Shown: positions 3,000 through 63,659 of the stretch, one piece after another
Layout: every line of letters begins with the position of its first letter
How positions within the stretch are numbered: position 1 is the first letter of the stretch
Assembly (NCBI GenBank): GCA_945831575.1
Contig: CAMACX010000010.1
Coordinates: forward strand, 1-64,000
From: an uncultured Mediterranea sp.
GTDB taxonomy: Bacteria > Bacteroidota > Bacteroidia > Bacteroidales > Bacteroidaceae
Reading direction: 5' to 3'
Length of the DNA: 64,000 nucleotides
The notes under the pieces: model-generated
Databases searched by the model: none
What the model saw: the letters and a program-made list of their open reading frames with translations, nothing else
What the model was told of the DNA's origin: nothing
Position numbers and translations under genes: made by a program

Positions 3000-4355
3000 A
3001 TGAACGTTTCATTACAAAACATGGACAAGGTAAGCGCGCTGCTTACCGTGAAGATTGAGAAGGCCGACTACCAGGAGAAGGTAGAGAAGTCGCTGAAGAG
3101 CCTCCGTCAGAAAGCTCAAATGCCTGGTTTCCGTCCGGGTAAGGTGCCTGCCGGTCTGGTGAAGAAAATGTATGGCAAGCAGGTGCTGGCCGAAGAGGTG
3201 AACAAGATTCTCTCGGATGCAGTGTACAATTATATTAAGGATAATAAGGTCAACATGCTGGGCGAACCGCTGGTGAACGAGGAGAAGCAGGGTGAAATCG
3301 ACTTCGACACGATGGAGGAGTTTGAGTTCCTGTTTGACATCGCACTGGCTCCCGAGTTCCAGGTGGAGGTAGGGGCTGCCGACAAGGTGGACTACTACCA
3401 CATCGACGTGACCGACGAGATGGTGGAGAACCAGGTGAAGATGTACACGCAGCGTAACGGCAAGTACGAGAAGGCTGACAGCTATGAACCCAACGACATG
3501 ATGAAGGGTGTGCTGGCCGAGCTGGACGAGAACGGCAGTGTGAAGGAGGGTGGTATCCAGGTGGAGGATGCCGTGATGATGCCCGAGTACATGAAGAACG
3601 AGGACCAGAAGGCACGCTTCAACGGTGCCAAGGTCAACGATGTCATCGTATTCAACCCCGCTACCGCATGGGACAACAACCAGGCTGAACTGGCTTCGCT
3701 GCTCAAGATTGAGAAGGAGGCTGCTGCCGAGGTGAAGGCTGACTTCAGCTATCAGGTGACTGAGATTACCCGCTTTGTGGCCGGCGACCTGAACCAGGAA
3801 ATCTTTGACCAGGTGTTTGGCAAGGGTGTAGTCAACAGTGAAGAGGAGTTCCGCACAAAGGTGAAGGAGGGCATCCAGGCTCAGTTCGCACAGGACAGCG
3901 ACTTCAAGTTCCTCATCGACTTCCGCAAGGTGATGATGGAGAAGGTGGGCAAGCTGGAATTCCCCGAAGCCCTGCTGAAGCGCATCATGCTGCATAACAA
4001 TGCCGATAAGGGTGAGCAGTTTGTGGAGGAGAACTTCGCAAAGAGCCTCGAAGAGCTGACCTGGCACCTGATCAAGGAGCAGCTGGTAGAGCACTACGGC
4101 ATCAAGGTGGAGAACGAGGATGTCATGGAGATGGCCAAGGCTGCTACAAGAGCGCAGTTCGCTCAGTACGGCATGATGAGTGTGCCTGATGAACTGCTGG
4201 AAAACTACGCCAAGGAGATGCTCAAGAAGAAGGAGAGCGTAGATGGCCTGGTGAACCGTGCGGTTGAGACGAAGCTGGTTGCAGCTGTTAAGCCTCAAGT
4301 AACCCTGGAGGAAAAGACCGTTACGATGGATGAGTTTAACAAGATGTTTGAATAA
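3000..4355 (+). CDS. tig: Trigger factor
   Basis: N-terminal ribosome-binding motif MPGFRPGKVP; domain layout; directly upstream of clpP-clpX. Confidence 0.95.
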   Translation: MNVSLQNMDKVSALLTVKIEKADYQEKVEKSLKSLRQKAQMPGFRPGKVPAGLVKKMYGKQVLAEEVNKILSDAVYNYIKDNKVNMLGEPLVNEEKQGEIDFDTMEEFEFLFDIALAPEFQVEVGAADKVDYYHIDVTDEMVENQVKMYTQRNGKYEKADSYEPNDMMKGVLAELDENGSVKEGGIQVEDAVMMPEYMKNEDQKARFNGAKVNDVIVFNPATAWDNNQAELASLLKIEKEAAAEVKADFSYQVTEITRFVAGDLNQEIFDQVFGKGVVNSEEEFRTKVKEGIQAQFAQDSDFKFLIDFRKVMMEKVGKLEFPEALLKRIMLHNNADKGEQFVEENFAKSLEELTWHLIKEQLVEHYGIKVENEDVMEMAKAATRAQFAQYGMMSVPDELLENYAKEMLKKKESVDGLVNRAVETKLVAAVKPQVTLEEKTVTMDEFNKMFE

Positions 4356-51884: not shown

Positions 51885-54800
51885 TTACTTCTTGTGTGCT
51901 TCAACCCACTTGCGGGCGTTGACAAAGGCCTCAATCCAGGGAGTCACCTCATCGGCCTTGCGTTCGTCGGGGTAGTACCCGCATTGCCAGGGGAAGATGG
52001 TGCGCTCGGGGTGAGGCATGATGGCCAGGTGGCGTCCGTCCTTGCTGGCGATGGCGGCTACGCTGTAGCTTGAGCCGTTGGGATTGGCGGGGTATTCATC
52101 GTACGAGAATTTGGCTACGACGTTGTACTCCTCCTCAGGCAGGGGCAGGTTAAACTTGCCTTCGCCGTGGGCTACCCAGGTGCCGATCTTGAAGCCGCTC
52201 AGCGAACCGAACATCACACTGCGGTTGGTCGTTACGGTCAGTGAGACGAAGTTGCACTCAAACTTGTGGCTGTCGTTGTGCTCCATGCGGGCACGCTTGT
52301 CGGCGGGATGCTCGGGGTTGATGAGTCCCAGCTCTACCATCAGCTGGCAGCCGTTGCAGACACCGAGCGAGAGGGTATCTTCACGGGCATAGAACTTGTC
52401 GAGGGCCTCCTTGGCCTTGGGGTTATAAAGGAAGGCACCTGCCCATCCCTTGGCCGAACCGAGTACGTCGCTGTTGGAGAATCCGCCGCAGAAGGCGATG
52501 ACGTTGACATCCTCCAACGTCTCGCGGCCACTGATCAGGTCGGTCATGGTGACATCCTTCACGTCAAATCCAGCCAGCCAGAAGGCATAGGCCATCTCGC
52601 GCTCGGAGTTGGTACCCTTCTCGCGGATGACGGCAGCCTGCAGTCCGCTCGCTGTGCGGCGGTCGGGGTCGAGTCCCCACTGCTTCAGCCGGCCCGTGAA
52701 CGAAGGACCGAAGGCCAGCTCCAGCGGCTGCTGCTTGTAGTTCTCAAAGCGCTCCTTGGCCTTGCCGTGGAAGCTCTGCTTGCGGTCGAGCAGGTAGGAG
52801 CTCGAGTACCATACGTCGCGCAGGTAGTCGATACCAAACTGGTAGTCGGAGCCCTCCATGCTCACCATGATGTGACGCTCGTCGGTCGGTACACCCAGCT
52901 TGATGTAACCCACGCCGGCATCGTCGAGAATCTTCTTCACGCGCGGTGCATCGTGGTCGCTCACCTGGATGACTACACCGGGATTCTCGGAGAAGAGTGC
53001 CTTCACGATGTCGGTGCCCACCAGCTTGTTCAGGCAGATCTCCATACCGCCCTCTACATTGGCGAAGCACATCTCCAGCAGGGTGGTGATCAGACCGCCG
53101 GCAGAGATGTCGTGACCGGCCATCACCAGCCCCTCGTTGATGAGCTGCTGCACGGCCAGGAAGGCATCGCGGAAGTATTCAGGATTCTTCACGGTAGGCA
53201 CGTCGCTGCCCACCTTACCCTGCGACTGGGCGAAGGCAGAGCCGCCCAGCTGCAGCGTGTCGAAGGAGAAGTCGATGTGGTAGAAGCGGCTCTTCTTGAC
53301 GTTCTTCATCACGGGAGAGACGATCTTGCGGATGTCGCTCACCTCGCCGCCGGCCGATACGATGACCGTACCCGGGGCAATCACCTTGCTGCCGTCGGGG
53401 TACTTCTGCGTCATCGAGAGGCTGTCCTTACCTGTCGGTACGTTGATCTGCAGGGCGCAGCAGAAGTCGCTCAGCGCCTTGACTGCGGTGTAGAGGCGGG
53501 CATCCTCACCCTCCTGCGAGCGGCAGGGCCACATCCAGTTGGCTGAGAGCGATACGCTGTCCAGCCCGTCGGCCAGCGGAGCCCATACCAGGTTGGTCAG
53601 TGCTTCGCTCACGCTGAGCACGGATCCTGCGGCGGGGTTGGCCAGGGCCGCCTGCGGGGCGTGACCCAGCGAGGTGGCGATACCCTTGCGGCCACGGTAG
53701 TCGAGGGCCACGGCACCGCAGTCGCTCAGCGGCAACTGCAGTTCGCCCTGACATTGCTGCCGGGCCACACGGCCCGTCACGCAGCGATCCACCTTGTTGG
53801 TCAGCCAGTCCTTGCAGGCCACGGCTTCGAGCTGCAGCACGTTGGCCACATATTCATCGAGACGGGTCACGTCATAGGTCACCACGTCGTATTTGCGTTC
53901 CACGGTCTTATCCACCATGTAGGTCTTGGGTGAAGAGCCAAACATCTGCTCCACGGCCAGGTCGAAGGGACGCACGCCGTCGGCCTGCTGGAAGGCGAAG
54001 CGGTGGTCGCCGGTGGTCTCACCCACCACGTACATCGGGGCGCGTTCGCGCTCAGCAATCTTCTGCACATGCTCGATGGCCTGCTCCTCGATGAGCAGGC
54101 CCATGCGCTCCTGGCTCTCATTGGCAATAATCTCCTTGGCTGAGAGGGTCTTGTCGCCGATGGGCAGCTTGCTCATGTCAATCAGTCCGCCACACTCCTC
54201 CACCAGTTCGCTCAGGCAGTTGACGTGGCCGGCCGAGCCGTGGTCGTGGATGGAGACTACGGGGTTGCTCTCCTCCTCGCAGAGGGCACGTACCACGTTG
54301 TAGGCACGCTTCTGCATCTCGGCGTTGGCGCGTTGCACCGCGTTCAGCTCGATGCCGCTGCTGTAGCGGCCCGTGTCAACCGATGATACCGAGCCACCGC
54401 CCAGGCCGATGCGGTAGTTGTCACCGCCGATGACCACCACCTTCTCGCCGGCTTCAGGCTTGCCCTTCAGGCAGTCGCGGCGTGTGCCGTAGCCTACGCC
54501 ACCGGCCAGCATGATGACCTTGTCGTAGCCATAGAGCGTATCTTCAGCGTTCTCCTTGTGCTCGAAGGTGAGCACTGAGCCGCAGATCAGCGGTTGGCCA
54601 AACTTGTTGCCGAAGTCGCTGGCACCGTTGGAGGCCTTAATAAGGATCTGCTCCGGTGTCTGGTAGAGCCACTTGCGCACGGGCAGCAGCTCCTCCCATT
54701 CGCGTCCTTCGTCGGTGCGGGGGTAGGAGGTCATATAGACGGCCGTTCCGGCGATGGGCCAGGAACCCTTACCGCCACCCATACGGTCGCGGATCTCACC

Positions 54801-55598
54801 ACCCGTACCGGTTGAGGCGCCGTTGAAGGGCTCCACCGTGGTGGGGAAGTTATGCGTTTCAGCCTTGAGCGAGATGACGCTCTCGATCTCCTTTACCTGG
54901 AAGTAGTCGGGCTTGGAGTGGTCGGCGGGGGCAAACTGCTCCACTACCGGGCCTGCGGCAAAGGCCACGTTGTCCTTGTAGGCCGAGATAATCTTGTTGG
55001 GGTTCTCCTGGGTGGTCTTCTTGATCATCTGGAAGAGGGATGACTCCTTCTCCTCGCCGTCGATGATGAAGGTGCCGCCGAATATCTTGTGGCGGCAGTG
55101 CTCGGAGTTGATCTGGGCAAAGCCGAACACTTCGCTGTCGGTCAGCGGGCGGCCGAGGTCCTGCTCCACCTTCTTCAGGTAGTCCATCTCCTCGCGTGAG
55201 AGGGCCAGGCCCTCCTGCTCGTTGTAGGCCTCCAGATCGTCGATGTGGACGATGGGCTCAGGTTGACGGTGGGTCGTGAAGAGCTCCTGGTTGAGTCCCT
55301 TGTACATGCGTTGCAGCATGGGGTCGTGGTCGGCGTTCTCATCGGCTACGGGGAAGTACTCCTCGATGCGGCTGATGCCGCCGAGGCCCATGTTCTGGGT
55401 GATTTCCACGGCGTTGGTGCTCCACGGCGTAATCATCTCGCGGCGTGGGCCAACGAAGTGGCCGCTTAGATGTTCTTCACTTTCGGGGGTAGCGTTGCCG
55501 AAGAGCCAGCAGAGCTTCTCGCAGTCGGCTTGCAGAAGGGCGTGATCGCTCTCTACGGCGATGACGCTCTGTTGTGGGGTTCTGAAAAATAGAATCAT
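51885..55598 (-). CDS. purL: Phosphoribosylformylglycinamidine synthase
   Basis: FGAMS motifs, glutaminase domain (FCGGFSNSDVLGSAKGWA, GVCNGCQLM); start set at MILFF because the -7 TATCTTTG (- strand, 55635-55642) overlaps the longer ORF start. Confidence 0.97.
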   Translation of the reverse strand: MILFFRTPQQSVIAVESDHALLQADCEKLCWLFGNATPESEEHLSGHFVGPRREMITPWSTNAVEITQNMGLGGISRIEEYFPVADENADHDPMLQRMYKGLNQELFTTHRQPEPIVHIDDLEAYNEQEGLALSREEMDYLKKVEQDLGRPLTDSEVFGFAQINSEHCRHKIFGGTFIIDGEEKESSLFQMIKKTTQENPNKIISAYKDNVAFAAGPVVEQFAPADHSKPDYFQVKEIESVISLKAETHNFPTTVEPFNGASTGTGGEIRDRMGGGKGSWPIAGTAVYMTSYPRTDEGREWEELLPVRKWLYQTPEQILIKASNGASDFGNKFGQPLICGSVLTFEHKENAEDTLYGYDKVIMLAGGVGYGTRRDCLKGKPEAGEKVVVIGGDNYRIGLGGGSVSSVDTGRYSSGIELNAVQRANAEMQKRAYNVVRALCEEESNPVVSIHDHGSAGHVNCLSELVEECGGLIDMSKLPIGDKTLSAKEIIANESQERMGLLIEEQAIEHVQKIAERERAPMYVVGETTGDHRFAFQQADGVRPFDLAVEQMFGSSPKTYMVDKTVERKYDVVTYDVTRLDEYVANVLQLEAVACKDWLTNKVDRCVTGRVARQQCQGELQLPLSDCGAVALDYRGRKGIATSLGHAPQAALANPAAGSVLSVSEALTNLVWAPLADGLDSVSLSANWMWPCRSQEGEDARLYTAVKALSDFCCALQINVPTGKDSLSMTQKYPDGSKVIAPGTVIVSAGGEVSDIRKIVSPVMKNVKKSRFYHIDFSFDTLQLGGSAFAQSQGKVGSDVPTVKNPEYFRDAFLAVQQLINEGLVMAGHDISAGGLITTLLEMCFANVEGGMEICLNKLVGTDIVKALFSENPGVVIQVSDHDAPRVKKILDDAGVGYIKLGVPTDERHIMVSMEGSDYQFGIDYLRDVWYSSSYLLDRKQSFHGKAKERFENYKQQPLELAFGPSFTGRLKQWGLDPDRRTASGLQAAVIREKGTNSEREMAYAFWLAGFDVKDVTMTDLISGRETLEDVNVIAFCGGFSNSDVLGSAKGWAGAFLYNPKAKEALDKFYAREDTLSLGVCNGCQLMVELGLINPEHPADKRARMEHNDSHKFECNFVSLTVTTNRSVMFGSLSGFKIGTWVAHGEGKFNLPLPEEEYNVVAKFSYDEYPANPNGSSYSVAAIASKDGRHLAIMPHPERTIFPWQCGYYPDERKADEVTPWIEAFVNARKWVEAHKK

Positions 55599-55634
55599 AT
55601 CTTGTCTTTTTCGCACATGTTTCTTTTCGTGCTG

Positions 55635-55642
55635 CAAAGATA
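55635..55642 (-). promoter_or_regulatory. -7 element (TATCTTTG on - strand) for purL
   Basis: caaagata on + strand, ~36 bp upstream of the MILFF start. Confidence 0.6.
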
Positions 55643-55740
55643 CTCATTTTTTGCGAGACTGCCATACGTTTCGTGGAAAAAATCAGCGGAGGCATGGTTC
55701 TTCCTTGTCAAAGGGCTGTTTTGGGGGTGGCTTGTGGCTC

Positions 55741-55776
55741 ATCGGATTGCGATGCGATGGCAATCGGATTGCGATG
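55741..55776. repeat. 22-bp-spaced direct repeat ATCGGATTGCGATG x2
   Basis: Identical 14-mers at 55741 and 55763. Confidence 0.85.
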
Positions 55777-56072
55777 GTCTCTTTATTATCCCGCGGGCAT
55801 AAATTTAAGACTAAGACTAAGACATAGACGTCGTCATTAGATTAGGGCAGAAAAAGAAATATGACGATAATATTGGTTTTATGTTTGCCGACGGTGAGGC
55901 TGCTTGGTCGCTAATGGGTAGGCTGTTTCGGGAGGCTGAATGGCCTATTTAGGTGGTGCAGACAGGCTGTTTGCGTAGCGTAAAAGGCATACTTAGCGAG
56001 GGGCTTTCTGCAAATTTGTGCGCTGGAGAGAAAATAACCGGCACTTTGCTTGCCTATGTCGCAAATTTGTTG

Positions 56073-56080
56073 TAATTTTG
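56073..56080 (+). promoter_or_regulatory. Candidate -7 element TAATTTTG immediately before the ATG at 56086
   Basis: TAnnTTTG match; TTGC at 56050-56053 with 19-bp spacing. Confidence 0.5.
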
Positions 56081-56085
56081 CCGCT

Positions 56086-57663
56086 ATGAAAACACGATTA
56101 GTCTTGTCAACCTGTCTTTTGGTCCTTGCTGTAAACTGCTTTTCGCAGCAGCGGGTTACCCGGGAAAGCTTGGATTCCCTGCGCGCCAGTTTCTTTGTCG
56201 ATGCCGACGAGATGGTGAGTGGGTTTGAGGCGTATGCCCAGGAGGCGGAGCAGGCGTATCGGCGTGATGCGGCTCGGCTGGAGGAGGAGTACCGGCGCTT
56301 TGTGCGCCAGGTCGGCCGTGTCTGGGGTACCGATTCTCTGGGACAGGTGATGAGCGATACGAAGCATGAATGGGTGGAGTATGGCAAGCATTACAAGTCG
56401 CGCTCACGGGTCAACTTCGAGACCGGCCGTGTGGTGGTGGAGGTGGCGCTCGACCCGAAGGAGGCAAAGGATTCGCTCAAGCAGACGCAGCGCTTGGCTG
56501 AGGCCGTGCAGCAGCTCCTGGAGAGCCGCGGTTCTCTGACGCCCTACGATGCGTCCGGGGAGCGTGGCGAGGCACTCGCCACCCAGCCCATCCTGCAAGG
56601 TCTGCTGGACCTCTCTCCCTATCAGGGTCTCGATGAATCCCTTATCAACGGATCAGACAGCACGGAGCCGACTCTGGCCAACAGCCGGCCGGCACCTCCT
56701 CAGCCTACGGTGCGTGGCGGGGAGCTGGCCCTTCAGCCCCGTGATGATGCCTCCCGGACAGCGGAGGACACTGCGCTCACTTCCGGTGATGGACAGCCGG
56801 TTGACAGCACATCCCGTGACAACGCTGGCTCCCGAGGCAGCATGGCCTCCCGCCGCAGCCAGCAATTGCGCTCTCGCGAGGCAGCACGCGAAGAGGCCGC
56901 CCGTCGCGCCTCCGAAAGGGCGGCGGCACGTCATCATGCGGCAAAGGCCACACCCCAGGTGGCTACCTCTCCCTCATCGGCTGCCGGCTCCAAGAAGGGG
57001 AGTGGCAAGACGCTGGCTTCGCGTATCATTGCCGAGCAGAGCGTCAAGCAGCTGAGCCGTGTGGAGGGGAGTGGCGGCGAGGTGCGTCAGGTGGTGGCCA
57101 TCGAGATGAAGCTCGTCGCCGACAACCTCTCCAAGAATGCCGCCCTCTACAAAGACCTGGTGGCTGAATTTTCCAATCGCTATCAGGTGGAGCAACCGCT
57201 CATCTTTGCGGTCATCGAGCAGGAGTCCGCCTTCAATCCCCAAGCTACCAGCTGGGTGCCGGCCTACGGACTGATGCAGCTCGTACCCACCTCGGGTGGT
57301 CGCCACGCCTACCGCTACGTCTATGGCAAGGAGTGGTGCCCCACGCAAGCCTACCTCTACAATCCACGCAACAACATCGAGCTGGGCACGGCCTACCTGC
57401 GCGTGCTGCTCAACCAGTTTGCCGCCGTGGGCAATCCCGACTGCCGCCGTCTCTGTGCCATAGCCAGCTACAACACCGGAGCCGGCAACGTGAGCCGCTC
57501 TTTCACGGGAGGTACCAGCGTGGTACAGGCCACGCCGCTCATCAACCAGATGGATTATGCTACCCTCTATAATCACCTCACGACCAGACTGTCGCACAGC
57601 GAAGCCCGGGGCTACGTGGCAGGCGTGACCCGCCGCATGACCAAGTACGTGAAGCAGGAGTAG
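56086..57663 (+). CDS. MltC-like lytic murein transglycosylase with disordered linker
   Basis: EQESAFNPQATSWVPAYGLMQLVPTSGGRHAYRYVYGKEWCPTQAYLYNPRNNIELGTAYLRVLL...ASYNTGAG. Confidence 0.92.
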   Translation: MKTRLVLSTCLLVLAVNCFSQQRVTRESLDSLRASFFVDADEMVSGFEAYAQEAEQAYRRDAARLEEEYRRFVRQVGRVWGTDSLGQVMSDTKHEWVEYGKHYKSRSRVNFETGRVVVEVALDPKEAKDSLKQTQRLAEAVQQLLESRGSLTPYDASGERGEALATQPILQGLLDLSPYQGLDESLINGSDSTEPTLANSRPAPPQPTVRGGELALQPRDDASRTAEDTALTSGDGQPVDSTSRDNAGSRGSMASRRSQQLRSREAAREEAARRASERAAARHHAAKATPQVATSPSSAAGSKKGSGKTLASRIIAEQSVKQLSRVEGSGGEVRQVVAIEMKLVADNLSKNAALYKDLVAEFSNRYQVEQPLIFAVIEQESAFNPQATSWVPAYGLMQLVPTSGGRHAYRYVYGKEWCPTQAYLYNPRNNIELGTAYLRVLLNQFAAVGNPDCRRLCAIASYNTGAGNVSRSFTGGTSVVQATPLINQMDYATLYNHLTTRLSHSEARGYVAGVTRRMTKYVKQE

Positions 57664-57715
57664 CGAATGGTGATAGTTAACGCAAGATATGAACCGCTAA
57701 AAGAGAAAAGTGACT

Positions 57716-59563
57716 ATGTATTGTCCTGAATGTGGAACGAAAATCGAGGAAACAGGGGCGCGCTTCTGCCCTGAATGCGGCACGCGGCTCGACGAGCCTG
57801 AGGAGTCACAGCAACCTGCTGCGGCATCTGCTGCGCCGTCTGCCGCGCAACTTGCTGCAGGGGAAGCGGCCTGTGGTAAGGAGAACCCGATGGAGTGGGG
57901 ACTTATCCTCACCAACTGTCGCCTGCTCTCTGCCAAGCTGGGAGGCAGCGTGGAGGAGGCCAACCAACTGATGGCCAGCTACATCGAAGCACGTCGTGCC
58001 TCGGGAGTAGATTATGAACTGATTGACGTGGATGACTACACCTACCGCAAGCGCAGTTTCCTGAGCCGTACACGCCATGTGAGCCTACAGCCCGACTCCC
58101 CTTGGGGTGACTACCTTGACCTGCTGGCCGATGCTGTCGAGGCACGCACCGGCAAGCGCGCCAAGGGGCAGCCCCTCTATCTCTTCATCCTGGGTAGCAA
58201 CGACATCATCCCCATGCCTTGCGTGCCCCATCCCGTGAAGGAGGTGAGCGACAACGACATCGACACCGACCTGCTCTGGGCCTATCCCTACGGTCATCGT
58301 ATGGTGGATGAACTGCAGAGCCTGAACATCTTCCACTACGACCAGCAGCTCATGGTGGGTCGCCTTCCCGTGGGCGAGGACACGACGTGGAGCCAGTTTG
58401 CGGATTACCTGCAGCGGAGCGTCAACAGCAGTCTGGGCATACCCGGGGGCGTGGTCTATGGCCAGTGCGATCCCCATTGGAAGCGCGTCTCCTCCACGGT
58501 GGCCGGCGGTCTGACCCCCAACTTGCGCAACCTGGCTGCTCAGCCCTCCAGCGGCTACTACCGGGGATTGATTCTCTCGCCCTCCTATACCGCTGACAAT
58601 CTCAGTCAGGTCTTCACCCCTGAGGCTTATCTTTACTACTTCAACCTGCACGGCAGCAACGCCCCTGAGGCCTCCGGCTACTACGGCACCACCCTGGAGG
58701 AGCGCCCCAAATGCTATACGGTGATGCATCCCGTCTTCATGCAGGCCTGCCGGCAGCCCAATGTGGTGACCTGCGAAGCCTGCTACGGTGCCCGTCACCG
58801 GGGTATGGACAGCGCACACAGCACCCTGCTTGCCGCTCTCTATGCACAGACCCTGCTCTTTGTAGGCTCCTCGCGGATAGCGTGGGGCGATGTAGATGCC
58901 ATCGATGGTTCTGCTCCCACCCCCATGCTGGCCGACACCCTGGCCGCTACCTTCATGAACGCCCTCCAGGCTGGCTATCCCGCCGGACTGGCCCTCTTCC
59001 TGGCCAAGTCGGCTGTGATGCAGCAGGACAAGCAGGGCCGTCCGCACACCGCAGCCACGCTGCTGGAGTTTAACCTCTTCGGCGACCCCTCGCTCTACCT
59101 CGCTTTGTGGGATGAGGAGGCGACCGATGACAAGCGTGAGTCCCATAAGGAGCCTCGCCCCAACACGGCCCTTCCCCAGTCGGCTACCCAGCCCACCGCA
59201 CAGAGCTACGTCTGCCAGACGGAGCTGCTAGGAGGCGAGGCCGGAGCCGCATCCGCCACATCATCCGGAGCCGCATCTAGAGCTCCCTCTGCCGCATCGC
59301 CCACCGCCTCCCTGCTGCAGCAGGTCAGGTCGCAGGTCAACGCTAACGTCCTCCATATCCATGACCAGATGGCCCGTCACCTCTACAGCCGTTATGGCAT
59401 CCCGCCGAGGCCGGCCGCTGCCATCTTCCGCTTGCGTTATGCCGATGGCAGCGAAGAGCTCCGGTTCGACTACACCGTAGCGAGCGAAGGCGAGGTGAAG
59501 CAGACCCTGACCGTCACCTCGGATGCCCAAGGTAACATCAGACAGGTAATTGGAACTAAATAA
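57716..59563 (+). CDS. Zinc-ribbon protein with predicted C25/clan-CD-like cysteine peptidase domain
   Basis: YCPECGTKIEETGARFCPECGTRL; YLYYFNLHGSN (His codon 58649-58651) and VVTCEACYGAR (Cys codon 58781-58783) followed by LLAALYAQTLLFVGSSRIAWGDVD, resembling gingipain-type H-G...A-C...G(T/A)..FIGS layout. Confidence 0.7.
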   Translation: MYCPECGTKIEETGARFCPECGTRLDEPEESQQPAAASAAPSAAQLAAGEAACGKENPMEWGLILTNCRLLSAKLGGSVEEANQLMASYIEARRASGVDYELIDVDDYTYRKRSFLSRTRHVSLQPDSPWGDYLDLLADAVEARTGKRAKGQPLYLFILGSNDIIPMPCVPHPVKEVSDNDIDTDLLWAYPYGHRMVDELQSLNIFHYDQQLMVGRLPVGEDTTWSQFADYLQRSVNSSLGIPGGVVYGQCDPHWKRVSSTVAGGLTPNLRNLAAQPSSGYYRGLILSPSYTADNLSQVFTPEAYLYYFNLHGSNAPEASGYYGTTLEERPKCYTVMHPVFMQACRQPNVVTCEACYGARHRGMDSAHSTLLAALYAQTLLFVGSSRIAWGDVDAIDGSAPTPMLADTLAATFMNALQAGYPAGLALFLAKSAVMQQDKQGRPHTAATLLEFNLFGDPSLYLALWDEEATDDKRESHKEPRPNTALPQSATQPTAQSYVCQTELLGGEAGAASATSSGAASRAPSAASPTASLLQQVRSQVNANVLHIHDQMARHLYSRYGIPPRPAAAIFRLRYADGSEELRFDYTVASEGEVKQTLTVTSDAQGNIRQVIGTK

Positions 59564-59576
59564 AATACAAAAGAAT

Positions 59577-61976
59577 ATGAAATGTCCTAAGTGTAACGCA
59601 GAGCTCCGCGAAGGTGCCAAGTTTTGTACCAAGTGTGGAGAGAAGATTGTTCAGCAGGCTGGACAGCAGGCTGAGCAGCAACCTGTATGTGCTCAGTGTG
59701 GGGCACCGCTGAAGCCGGGTGCCAAGTTCTGTACGAAGTGTGGTACCAAGGTGCAGGCCATTGCGCCTGTGCAGGAGGAGCCGAAAGTCCCGCAGCCACA
59801 GTCAGCAGACGATATGCAGGCCGCTGCCGGACGCATCATCTGGAATATACAGCCCGGACTGGTGGCCCGTGTCATTAGTGAGGCGGAGTTTGAGACCTAC
59901 CGCAAGGTGCAGGGAGTCATCATTCCCGAAGGGACTACCGCCTACATCCGCTGCAACGGACGCACCATCGCCTCCATCAGCGGAGGCACCTACGACTTCC
60001 GTGAGGAGCAGGAAGGCAACATCCTGACCCGTGCCGGTGAGTCGTTGGGGCAGTCACTCAAGCGTGGATGGCAGCTCATTGCCTCCCTCTTCAGCCGCAA
60101 GAAGCCCGAGCCCAAGGCCGAGCCTACGGCACAGGAGCTCTACGAACAGCAGCAGCGGCTCATCCTGGAGAATGCCCGCCGTGGAGCCGCTTTCTCCGTC
60201 ATCATCCTGCTAGATAAGGCGTTCCCCCTGTTGATTGGGGCCAAGCAGCCCAATCTGGACGACTACGCCCGCTTCAAGCCCATGAAGATTCAGACGGCGC
60301 ACCTCGAACTGGAGATGGGGGTCAACGCCTACTTCCGCATCGTCAACTACGAGCAGTTTATCCTCCACTACCTTACCGACAAGACATTGCTCAACACGGC
60401 GGCCATCGTCGATGAGATTGCCGACTCCGTGCGCGTGGTGCTGCAGGAAGCCCTCTATGATACCGACCTGCCCGACGGAAGGGTCAGCCCCGCCATGCAC
60501 GCCCTGCTCAAGGAGCGCGTCAATAGTATCGCCGACCAGGCCTTCTTTGGTCTCTCCGTGGTGCGTATTGTCGAGATCTCGGCAACCAACGATGACCTCA
60601 GCCGCTTTGCTACCCTGAGCCGTGAACTTTACCTCTCTGAGCAGGAGCTTGACTACCTGCGCCGCACCAACGACTTCAAGAACCGCCTGGCCGATGTCAA
60701 CAACGCCCAGCAGCTGCACGAGGCCACTACCGACCTCGAACTGAGGCGGCAGCTCCATGCCATCAACCGCAACAGCCGCCAGGAGGAGCTGCTCAACGAA
60801 GACGAACTGGCTAAGTTTGAACTGCTGCTGCGCAACGAGCGCATCCTGCGTGAGGCACGCTCGGACGAGGAGCGCGAAGCGGCCCTCCATGAGATCCGCA
60901 AGAGCGGACTGATCCGGGAGGAGGAGTTGCAGGTGATGAAGGACAATATCCAGGTCAATGCCTACAAGCGCGGCACCGCCCTGGCCATGATGCAGCTCAA
61001 GGATAGCATCGACTTCGAACGCGCCCGCCTGGAAGGCGAGGGTGAACGGGCTGAGCTCATCGTCCGCAAGGAGCTGGAGCTGATGGGGCTGAAGGATGCC
61101 TACGCCGACAGCCGCTTCGACAAGCAGCTCGATCAGCAACGCCGTCTGGCCGACTCGCAGCTCGATGTGGAGCAGCGCCGCCGCGACATGGACTATAACG
61201 ACACCAAGCGCCTGCACGACATGCAGCGTGAGGATGATGAGGCGCAGTTCCAGCAGTTTCTGGCCATGCAGCAGGCCGAGGAGCAGCAGCGCGAGAACCA
61301 GCGTCGCCACGAGGCCGAGATGCAGCAACAGCAGTTGCGCAACGCCCAGGAGATGGAGCGCCTGAAGTGGGAGGGCGCACGCGACCTCTCCGACGAGAAG
61401 GTGTGGGCCATGCAGGGTGGCGAAGCTGCCGTGGCCTACGCGCAAAGCAAATACAGTGCCGACAACGAACGACGCACGCGCGAACTGCTCGATGCCCAGC
61501 GCCGAGAGCAGGAGGCCCGTCTGGACCAGGAGCGTCAGCGCCGTGAAGAGGCCGATCGAGCCAACCAGGAGCGGATGTACGAGATGATGAACAACATGAT
61601 GCAGATGACGGGAGCTATCGCCGGTGTGCGCAGCGAGGAGCGCGAACAGCGTAACCAGGAGCGGCTGGCCGACCGCGACCGCGAATTGCGCGAACGCGAA
61701 GCACGCCTGCAGCGTCAGGAGGGCCGCATGGACACCGCCTACGACCGTGCCCTGGACTACACCACCCGCAATAACGTGCAGCCCCCCATGCCGCAAGGTT
61801 ACCAGCAACCCACACCGTCCCAGAGCTACCAGCAACCCACGCCGTCGCCAGCAGCGCCTCTTCAGCAGCCCGCTGCTCCTGCCGCAAAGGATATCCCTGC
61901 GGTATGTCCCGATTGTGGTGCTCCGGTAGAACCCGGTGCCTTGTTCTGCGAAGACTGTGGAGCCAAACTGGGATAA
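59577..61976 (+). CDS. Zinc-ribbon / SPFH (YdjI or 'virion core'-like) protein with long coiled coil; two N-terminal and one C-terminal zinc ribbons
   Basis: CPKCNAELREGAKFCTKCG, CAQCGAPLKPGAKFCTKCG, C-terminal CPDCGAPVEPGALFCEDCG; SPFH-like IIPEGTTAYIRCNGRTIASISGGTYDF; R/E/Q-rich helical region. Confidence 0.82.
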   Translation: MKCPKCNAELREGAKFCTKCGEKIVQQAGQQAEQQPVCAQCGAPLKPGAKFCTKCGTKVQAIAPVQEEPKVPQPQSADDMQAAAGRIIWNIQPGLVARVISEAEFETYRKVQGVIIPEGTTAYIRCNGRTIASISGGTYDFREEQEGNILTRAGESLGQSLKRGWQLIASLFSRKKPEPKAEPTAQELYEQQQRLILENARRGAAFSVIILLDKAFPLLIGAKQPNLDDYARFKPMKIQTAHLELEMGVNAYFRIVNYEQFILHYLTDKTLLNTAAIVDEIADSVRVVLQEALYDTDLPDGRVSPAMHALLKERVNSIADQAFFGLSVVRIVEISATNDDLSRFATLSRELYLSEQELDYLRRTNDFKNRLADVNNAQQLHEATTDLELRRQLHAINRNSRQEELLNEDELAKFELLLRNERILREARSDEEREAALHEIRKSGLIREEELQVMKDNIQVNAYKRGTALAMMQLKDSIDFERARLEGEGERAELIVRKELELMGLKDAYADSRFDKQLDQQRRLADSQLDVEQRRRDMDYNDTKRLHDMQREDDEAQFQQFLAMQQAEEQQRENQRRHEAEMQQQQLRNAQEMERLKWEGARDLSDEKVWAMQGGEAAVAYAQSKYSADNERRTRELLDAQRREQEARLDQERQRREEADRANQERMYEMMNNMMQMTGAIAGVRSEEREQRNQERLADRDRELREREARLQRQEGRMDTAYDRALDYTTRNNVQPPMPQGYQQPTPSQSYQQPTPSPAAPLQQPAAPAAKDIPAVCPDCGAPVEPGALFCEDCGAKLG

Positions 61977-62090: not shown

Positions 62091-62336
62091 ATGGCAACCA
62101 TAGAATGTACAGGCACCCTGCAGATCAGGACGAGCAATGAAGGCTCGAAGTCGGAAGGTCGTTATGCCATCCTCCTTACGGACGAGGGTAGCGAATACAC
62201 CCTCTACCGGGCTGGCTCCATGCCGATGGACGATCCTTACTTCGATCCCTACGACGGTGCCAAGGTCACCCTCACCGGTGAGGAGGAGGCGAACAGCTAC
62301 CTTAGGGTAACGAGTGAGCCAATTATAAATAGGTAA
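62091..62336 (+). CDS. Small acidic protein of unknown function (81 aa)
   Basis: MATIECTGTLQIRTSNEGSKSEGRYAILLTDEGSEYTLYRAG...; 21 bp spacing to next gene; no recognised family. Confidence 0.65.
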   Translation: MATIECTGTLQIRTSNEGSKSEGRYAILLTDEGSEYTLYRAGSMPMDDPYFDPYDGAKVTLTGEEEANSYLRVTSEPIINR

Positions 62337-62357: not shown

Positions 62358-63659
62358 ATGGGAGAACCAAGATTCTGTCCCGATTGTGGGACCAAGGTGG
62401 CAGACGACGAACGCTTCTGCCCCAATTGTGGAGTGGAGGTCCCTGCGCAGGCCGTTGCGCCTGCTGCCTCCGTACCTACTGCCCAAGCGGCGGCTGATGC
62501 ACCAGCGCTGTCGCAGGAGGAACCGATGATAGGTGCCGGTGCACGGGTCAACGCCACGGGTGGCATTCACCGCACCTCACACCAGCATGTGAATGTCAGC
62601 AACCAACAGGTGGATAACTCAAGCAACATCAGCAATACCACCAACAACACCACCATCGTGATGAACGGTACGGGGGAAGCCAAGTATTGTGAAGTGTGCG
62701 GCAATCCCCTGGAGGAGAAGCATCCACGTTGCCCCAAGTGCGGCAAGCAGATCTGCTTCGACTGTAAGGTGAAGGGGAAAAATCGCTGTGTGGAGTGTGA
62801 GAAGAAGGCGCGTGAGGAGTATCGCATCGCCTTCCAGCAACTGCTGCTCACGACCAACGGCAACCTCGGGGCCGCCGGTCGTCAGATGATGAACAACAAG
62901 GCACGCGAACTCGATGTGGAGGATGTCAAGGCTGACCTGGAGAAGGAGCTACTGGCCCTTTTCCGTCCCGCCAAGCCGGAACAACCTGCTGTCGCTGCGG
63001 CTGCCACTGCTGCTACAACAGCAGCTGCCGCTGCTGCCGTGGCTCAAAGAGCGGGCTCCCAGGCCCCCGCAGCAGGTACCAAGGGAACACCCAAGGGACT
63101 CGGCGCATTGAGTGGCGGCGAAGGCATCCGTCCACAACCCAAGGGCAATGAGGGAGGCGGCAACCGTACACTCTGGTTTCTCCTGGGTGGTGTAGCGGCT
63201 GTGGCCGTCATAGCCTTCCTGGCCTTTGGCGGCAAGGGAGAGAAGACGGAGTCAGCACCGGCTGAGCCACAGGCTGTGGAGCAAACCGCAGAACCGTCCG
63301 CAGCGGCACCCAAGTCGGGGACTCCCACCACACAGCCGGCCACTCCGCAGCAATCTGCTGTCGCCACACAGCCTACGCAGTCTGCACAACCTGCTCAGCA
63401 GACGCAAGCTGCGCCCGCGAAGTCAGCCACGCCTGCTACGGATGCCAGTTATGAGGCCGGCATGAAGGCTTACAAGGCTGGCGAGGGACTGGAGGCCATC
63501 GAGTGCTTCAAGAAGTCGGGCAGTGCCCAGGCCAACTACATGCTCGGCATCATCTACGAGAGCGGTTGCGGCAACGTAGGTTCCAATGCCATGATGGCCC
63601 GCAAGTACTTCAAGAAGGCTGCCCAACAAGGCTCAGCTGAAGCCAAGGCCAAGCTGTAG
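62358..63659 (+). CDS. Zinc-ribbon / second Zn-binding module / TM / Sel1-repeat protein
   Basis: FCPDCGTKVADDERFCPNCG; CEVCGNPLEEKHPRCPKCGKQICFDCKVKGKNRCVECE; TM TLWFLLGGVAAVAVIAFLAFGG; Sel1-like ANYMLGIIYESGCGNVGSNAMMARKYFKKAAQQGSAEAKAKL. Confidence 0.82.
   Translation: MGEPRFCPDCGTKVADDERFCPNCGVEVPAQAVAPAASVPTAQAAADAPALSQEEPMIGAGARVNATGGIHRTSHQHVNVSNQQVDNSSNISNTTNNTTIVMNGTGEAKYCEVCGNPLEEKHPRCPKCGKQICFDCKVKGKNRCVECEKKAREEYRIAFQQLLLTTNGNLGAAGRQMMNNKARELDVEDVKADLEKELLALFRPAKPEQPAVAAAATAATTAAAAAAVAQRAGSQAPAAGTKGTPKGLGALSGGEGIRPQPKGNEGGGNRTLWFLLGGVAAVAVIAFLAFGGKGEKTESAPAEPQAVEQTAEPSAAAPKSGTPTTQPATPQQSAVATQPTQSAQPAQQTQAAPAKSATPATDASYEAGMKAYKAGEGLEAIECFKKSGSAQANYMLGIIYESGCGNVGSNAMMARKYFKKAAQQGSAEAKAKL

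Follow-up and report, generated by a model that had tools for sequence, protein, structure and literature searches.

We conclude from sequence comparison that the protein encoded at positions 57716-59563 of the window (the whole stretch of 64,000 nucleotides analysed here) belongs to peptidase family C25, the gingipain/PorU-type family of clan CD, and its gene stands second in a nine-gene operon conserved in Bacteroidales. The reading that we prefer, and hold with middling confidence, is that it is a regulated cytosolic peptidase with a His312/Cys356 dyad, acting within a conserved envelope-associated complex.

The C25 peptidase domain covers approximately residues 77-465 (57944-59110, forward strand) as delimited by HHalign, residues 182-460 being covered by the Pfam model PF01364. 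By itself the protein matches this model with E=1.6e-4 and 21.5 bits, under the cut-off of 23; 11 of the 15 aligned members match it at E<=0.01 (best E=1.1e-12), and seven of the eight relatives that were scanned singly pass the cut-off. A reference profile of secreted, PorU-like C25 proteins was made by gathering canonical members from related genomes via PF01364 and then aligning them (those in the fetched loci are 772-1255 residues long), and against this reference the profile of our protein gave an HHalign Prob of 96.3 and p=1.6e-9 over residues 77-465. The alignment places His312-Gly313 on the canonical GHG, Cys356 on the canonical Cys, GRLPV on GRFPV and NLFGDPSL on LLGDPSM, and in a control comparison the central region of the neighbouring 799-residue protein gave p=0.63 against the same reference. 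Since the relatives match PF01364 and the profile-profile match is in register, membership of C25 can be regarded as shown at the level of sequence, which bears out the gingipain-type assignment of the original prediction as well as its reading of an HG followed by a Cys as the clan CD order. The predicted catalytic His312 (58649-58651) and Cys356 (58781-58783), both on the forward strand and 44 residues apart where that prediction had placed them, align with the His of the GHG motif and the Cys of secreted C25 proteins, and this pair, on whose conservation in homologues the prediction had been made to hang, is invariant together with G313, Y357 and G358 in 15 of 15 aligned sequences at identities down to 25%. 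D163, D185, R216-L217-P218, N310, G456 and P458 are likewise invariant in this alignment. Sequence searches against solved structures gave either no match or zinc-binding matches only, and an AlphaFold model of the protein, built from an alignment of four sequences, has a mean pLDDT of 38. C25 is a clan CD family, gingipain R having been its only solved structure at the time of the cited work (PMC4357240).

The gene probably starts with the ATG at 57716, and its stop codon ends at 59563, giving a protein of 615 residues on the forward strand. The only alternative start upstream is a GTG at 57710, two codons earlier, and since the frame extends no further than this, a signal peptide preceding the ribbon is impossible in frame, just as the prediction had held. 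The signal peptide and secretion that mark the secreted gingipains are thus lacking as judged from the frame, the zinc ribbon beginning at residue 2. This ribbon (residues 2-25, 57719-57790, forward strand) beats the Pfam cut-off for PF13240 (E=1.6e-7, 31.3 bits against 25), and its cysteines C3, C6, C18 and C21 are near-invariant in the 15-sequence alignment. At the other end of the protein, a region of approximately residues 530-615 (59303-59560, forward strand; SLLxQVRxxVDAN...LYxxYGIxPR...) is conserved among the 15 homologues, with L534, R538, V541 and L556 invariant. A dN/dS of 0.145 against the 78%-identical relative in locus L017 indicates that the gene is under purifying selection, and given this and the conservation a chance open reading frame was rejected. 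The source genome holds a single full-length copy, the only other match being to the ribbon of a 433-residue neighbour.

The operon, which had been no part of the original prediction, encodes, in order, a lytic transglycosylase, the C25 protein, a 799-residue zinc-ribbon and coiled-coil protein, an 81-residue protein, a zinc-ribbon protein with a transmembrane helix and a Sel1 repeat, an LpoB/FlgT-like protein, a DUF6175 protein, an LPP20 lipoprotein and another lipoprotein with weak similarity to LPP20. In these proteins we called signal peptides, lipoboxes and the transmembrane helix by eye. The genes within the window all lie on the forward strand. The first (56086-57663) encodes an MltC-type transglycosylase with an N-terminal signal peptide, matching PF01464 (SLT, E=9.9e-26), PF11873 (Mltc_N, E=1.3e-8) and the NCBIfam MltC model (E=1.7e-52, under the cut-off of that model), and a homologue lies immediately upstream of the C25 gene in eight other loci (L017-L022, L034 and L035). 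The small 81-residue protein (62091-62336) is conserved but without family. The 433-residue protein (62358-63659), which is conserved in homologous loci, has a zinc ribbon (PF13240, E=1.2e-9), one predicted transmembrane helix and a C-terminal Sel1 match (E=2.8e-5), and its gene has a dN/dS of 0.109 against L017. The operon runs past the window end (L037:3732-7934, that is G000:C10, about 63731-67933), where the LpoB/FlgT-like, DUF6175 (E=5e-50), LPP20 (E=3.7e-10) and LPP20-like genes are found; the 305-residue protein encoded there has a relative in L024 that matches LpoB (E=3.2e-5) and FlgT_C. The order is retained in L017, L018, L019 and L034, and also in L035, except that there the small lipoprotein has moved to the first place. 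The DUF6175 and LpoB-like genes of L023 and L024 instead lie upstream of C25, L025 retains the pair of C25 and 799-residue genes among otherwise different neighbours, and in L026 the relative of the 799-residue protein precedes C25. A search for Bacteroides-type promoters gave no clear full promoter. A TAATTTTG element of the Bacteroidetes -7 type (window 56073-56088) stops 6 bases short of the transglycosylase ATG and would, if used, make its transcript nearly leaderless. The purL gene adjoins the operon divergently in the window (51885-57663) and in L017, and on the same strand in L034:3502-8841, which is of another family and where purL is only 66% identical.

The 799-residue partner (59577-61976, forward strand) consists of two N-terminal ribbons, a central region, a long charged and likely coiled-coil stretch and a C-terminal ribbon, the ribbons corresponding to three PF13240 stretches. 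Apart from these it has no convincing Pfam family, and Pfam gave no Band-7 match. Its central region is colinear with a Band_7_1 protein that likewise has a zinc-ribbon end, the match being weak (HHalign Prob 4.9, p=0.008), and may possibly be an SPFH-like scaffold, which we offer as a lead; an AlphaFold model of this region has a mean pLDDT of 37 from an alignment of 4 rows. The gene adjoins C25 in homologous loci and has a dN/dS of 0.088 against L017.

The C25 gene has a patchy distribution within Bacteroidales, matches being found in nine of the 201 genomes of the family of the window and, of 295 genomes of the order, in 2 more. Closest among the named relatives are those from uncultured Mediterranea MAGs (identity 75-76%) and from Butyricimonas synergistica DSM 23225 (40%; locus L018). 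When 398 genomes of the phylum were searched with a profile, one more protein was recovered, distant and without ribbon (L038), and a 27.6%-identical protein, called a C25 family cysteine peptidase in one record, is encoded on Rhizobium plasmids, has no ribbon and passes the C25 cut-off (E=3.9e-9). G054 was rejected as a tenth carrier, its match being to the zinc ribbon only. No relative appeared in a scan of viral contigs or in phage records. The operon has a GC content of 0.606, that of the opening 51 kb of the window being 0.513, and together with the patchy distribution this is compatible with horizontal transfer, composition alone being no proof of it. On one Rhizobium plasmid (L036:2444-15416) a phage tail tip lysozyme, an L,D-transpeptidase, a chitosanase and a caspase family protein are annotated within a few kb of the C25 gene, so that cell-wall enzymes are again found near it. 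The homologue in L025:845-3289 has an additional C-terminal region, for a total of 814 residues, and by eye a similar stretch forms a separate 240-residue reading frame at L023:1030-1752.

Among the 201 family genomes the 799-residue gene is found in eight, all of which are among the nine that carry C25 (hypergeometric p=1.6e-13, with no correction for relatedness). In the ninth carrier, G093, the gene following C25 is out of view, since C25 runs to base 3588 of a contig of 3630 bases. G134 has an operon without C25 and the 81-residue gene, a divergent C25 being found on another contig, and C25 is therefore dispensable to the operon. DUF6175 is present in all nine carriers but in 45 of the 201 family genomes overall, and LpoB-like and DUF6175 genes are paired without C25 and zinc-ribbon genes in L085:8489-10794 and L086:9360-11569. 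It thus appears that a wider periplasmic module and a cytosolic module of zinc-ribbon proteins have been brought together. The pairs in L085 and L086 adjoin genes for other predicted secreted proteins.

In the arrangement that we favor, the peptidase would be drawn to the inner membrane by ribbons, namely its own, those of the 799-residue scaffold and that of the ribbon-Sel1 protein, which spans the membrane, and the lytic transglycosylase, LpoB/FlgT-like, DUF6175 and LPP20-type proteins would make up the periplasmic and outer-membrane side. A signal through the assembly would switch on C25, which would then cut cytosolic or membrane targets, so that it may be a regulated envelope-stress protease, potentially lethal to the cell when strongly activated; of this scheme we infer the trigger, the substrates and the outcome, be it stress processing or self-killing. 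Recruitment by way of the ribbon is plausible, since the 799- and 433-residue proteins of the operon bear ribbons as well. The notion of an envelope complex is in agreement with the C25 homology, the invariant dyad, the purifying selection, the kept operon order, the co-occurrence with the 799-residue gene and the predicted secreted, lipoprotein and cell-wall partners. Against it stand the operon of G134 and the distant relatives without ribbon that are encoded on Rhizobium plasmids and in a further Bacteroidota genome; the existence of these relatives implies that intracellular C25 proteins do not generally dock through a ribbon. A more specific version, in which outer-membrane and periplasmic lipoproteins together with the cytosolic zinc-ribbon scaffold would activate C25 in trans-envelope signalling, as an analogue of a caspase platform that senses envelope damage and brings about shutdown or death, strikes us as rather unlikely.

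An alternative explanation is that C25 is a killing effector in anti-phage defence or abortive infection, activated by infection or envelope damage to digest the proteins of the cell, with the transglycosylase helping lysis. The patchy distribution, the raised GC content of the operon, the intracellular clan CD nature of the peptidase and the RhuM/Fic and BRO-N genes adjoining the L024 locus would all suit such a role, but the C25, 799-residue and 81-residue proteins have no PADLOC match, and the lone weak match (E=1.5e-5), in the 433-residue protein, falls on a compositionally biased, low-complexity stretch. Furthermore, the other flanking genes scanned resemble ordinary chromosomal genes, relatives are absent from phage records and viral contigs, and periplasmic or lipoprotein partners, of which there are five here, are unusual for anti-phage and abortive-infection systems. 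A role in defence is weakened by the ordinary neighbours at most loci examined, the absence from phage records and the lack of a credible PADLOC match, and we consider it doubtful.

It is likewise conceivable that C25 acts constitutively in the maturation or quality control of an envelope-spanning apparatus, trimming one or more operon products during assembly without any role in signalling. That the operon is fixed and includes lipoproteins, a lytic transglycosylase and LpoB/FlgT-like proteins, such as are usual in envelope-spanning machines, would fit this, but the predicted outer-side partners would be beyond the reach of a cytosolic protease and the operon in G134 has no adjacent C25, for which reasons we regard such a function as somewhat improbable. 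The weak match of the window protein itself to the Pfam C25 model and the fact that no activity is known could also suggest that the domain has lost its peptidase activity and serves as a scaffold or binding module. This is however made very improbable by the facts that His312 and Cys356 fall on the catalytic residues of the canonical family members and that the pair is unchanged throughout the alignment, which would not be expected had catalysis been lost.

Canonical C25 proteins are secreted. The domain described here is homologous to that of the gingipains and of the PorU-like proteins of type IX secretion and has the GRLP, HG, Cys and LxGDP motifs in the same order and register, but the protein is shorter, is without signal peptide, carries a zinc ribbon and is encoded in an envelope operon, whereas gingipain is a secreted C25 protease (PMC4357240). 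With the intracellular C25-like proteins of Rhizobium pTA1_2 (WP_027688958.1) and L038 it shares the signatures E[AC]CYGA and F-L-GDPS, and the N-terminal TN/SN motif is similar as well; these proteins, however, lack the ribbon, and no partner of the 799-residue type is annotated beside the Rhizobium gene. The caspase-like peptidases of vWA-MoxR and related conflict systems are similar in being intracellular clan CD enzymes encoded in multi-gene clusters, and zinc ribbons and transmembrane components occur in some of these systems (PMC7159879), but we recognized no vWA, MoxR or other NTPase component in the C25 operon, and a search of the text of that paper gave no mention of C25. The operon and ribbon-tagged C25 proteins were not found described in the literature searched, the coverage of which is partial and no proof of novelty. 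Characterised C25 peptidases are secreted virulence or sorting proteases, and a C25 clade that is intracellular and ribbon-tagged, has an invariant dyad and is kept in an envelope-associated operon would point to an undescribed use of the family in gut bacteria, at a defined locus that is open to genetics, including in a named culturable strain.
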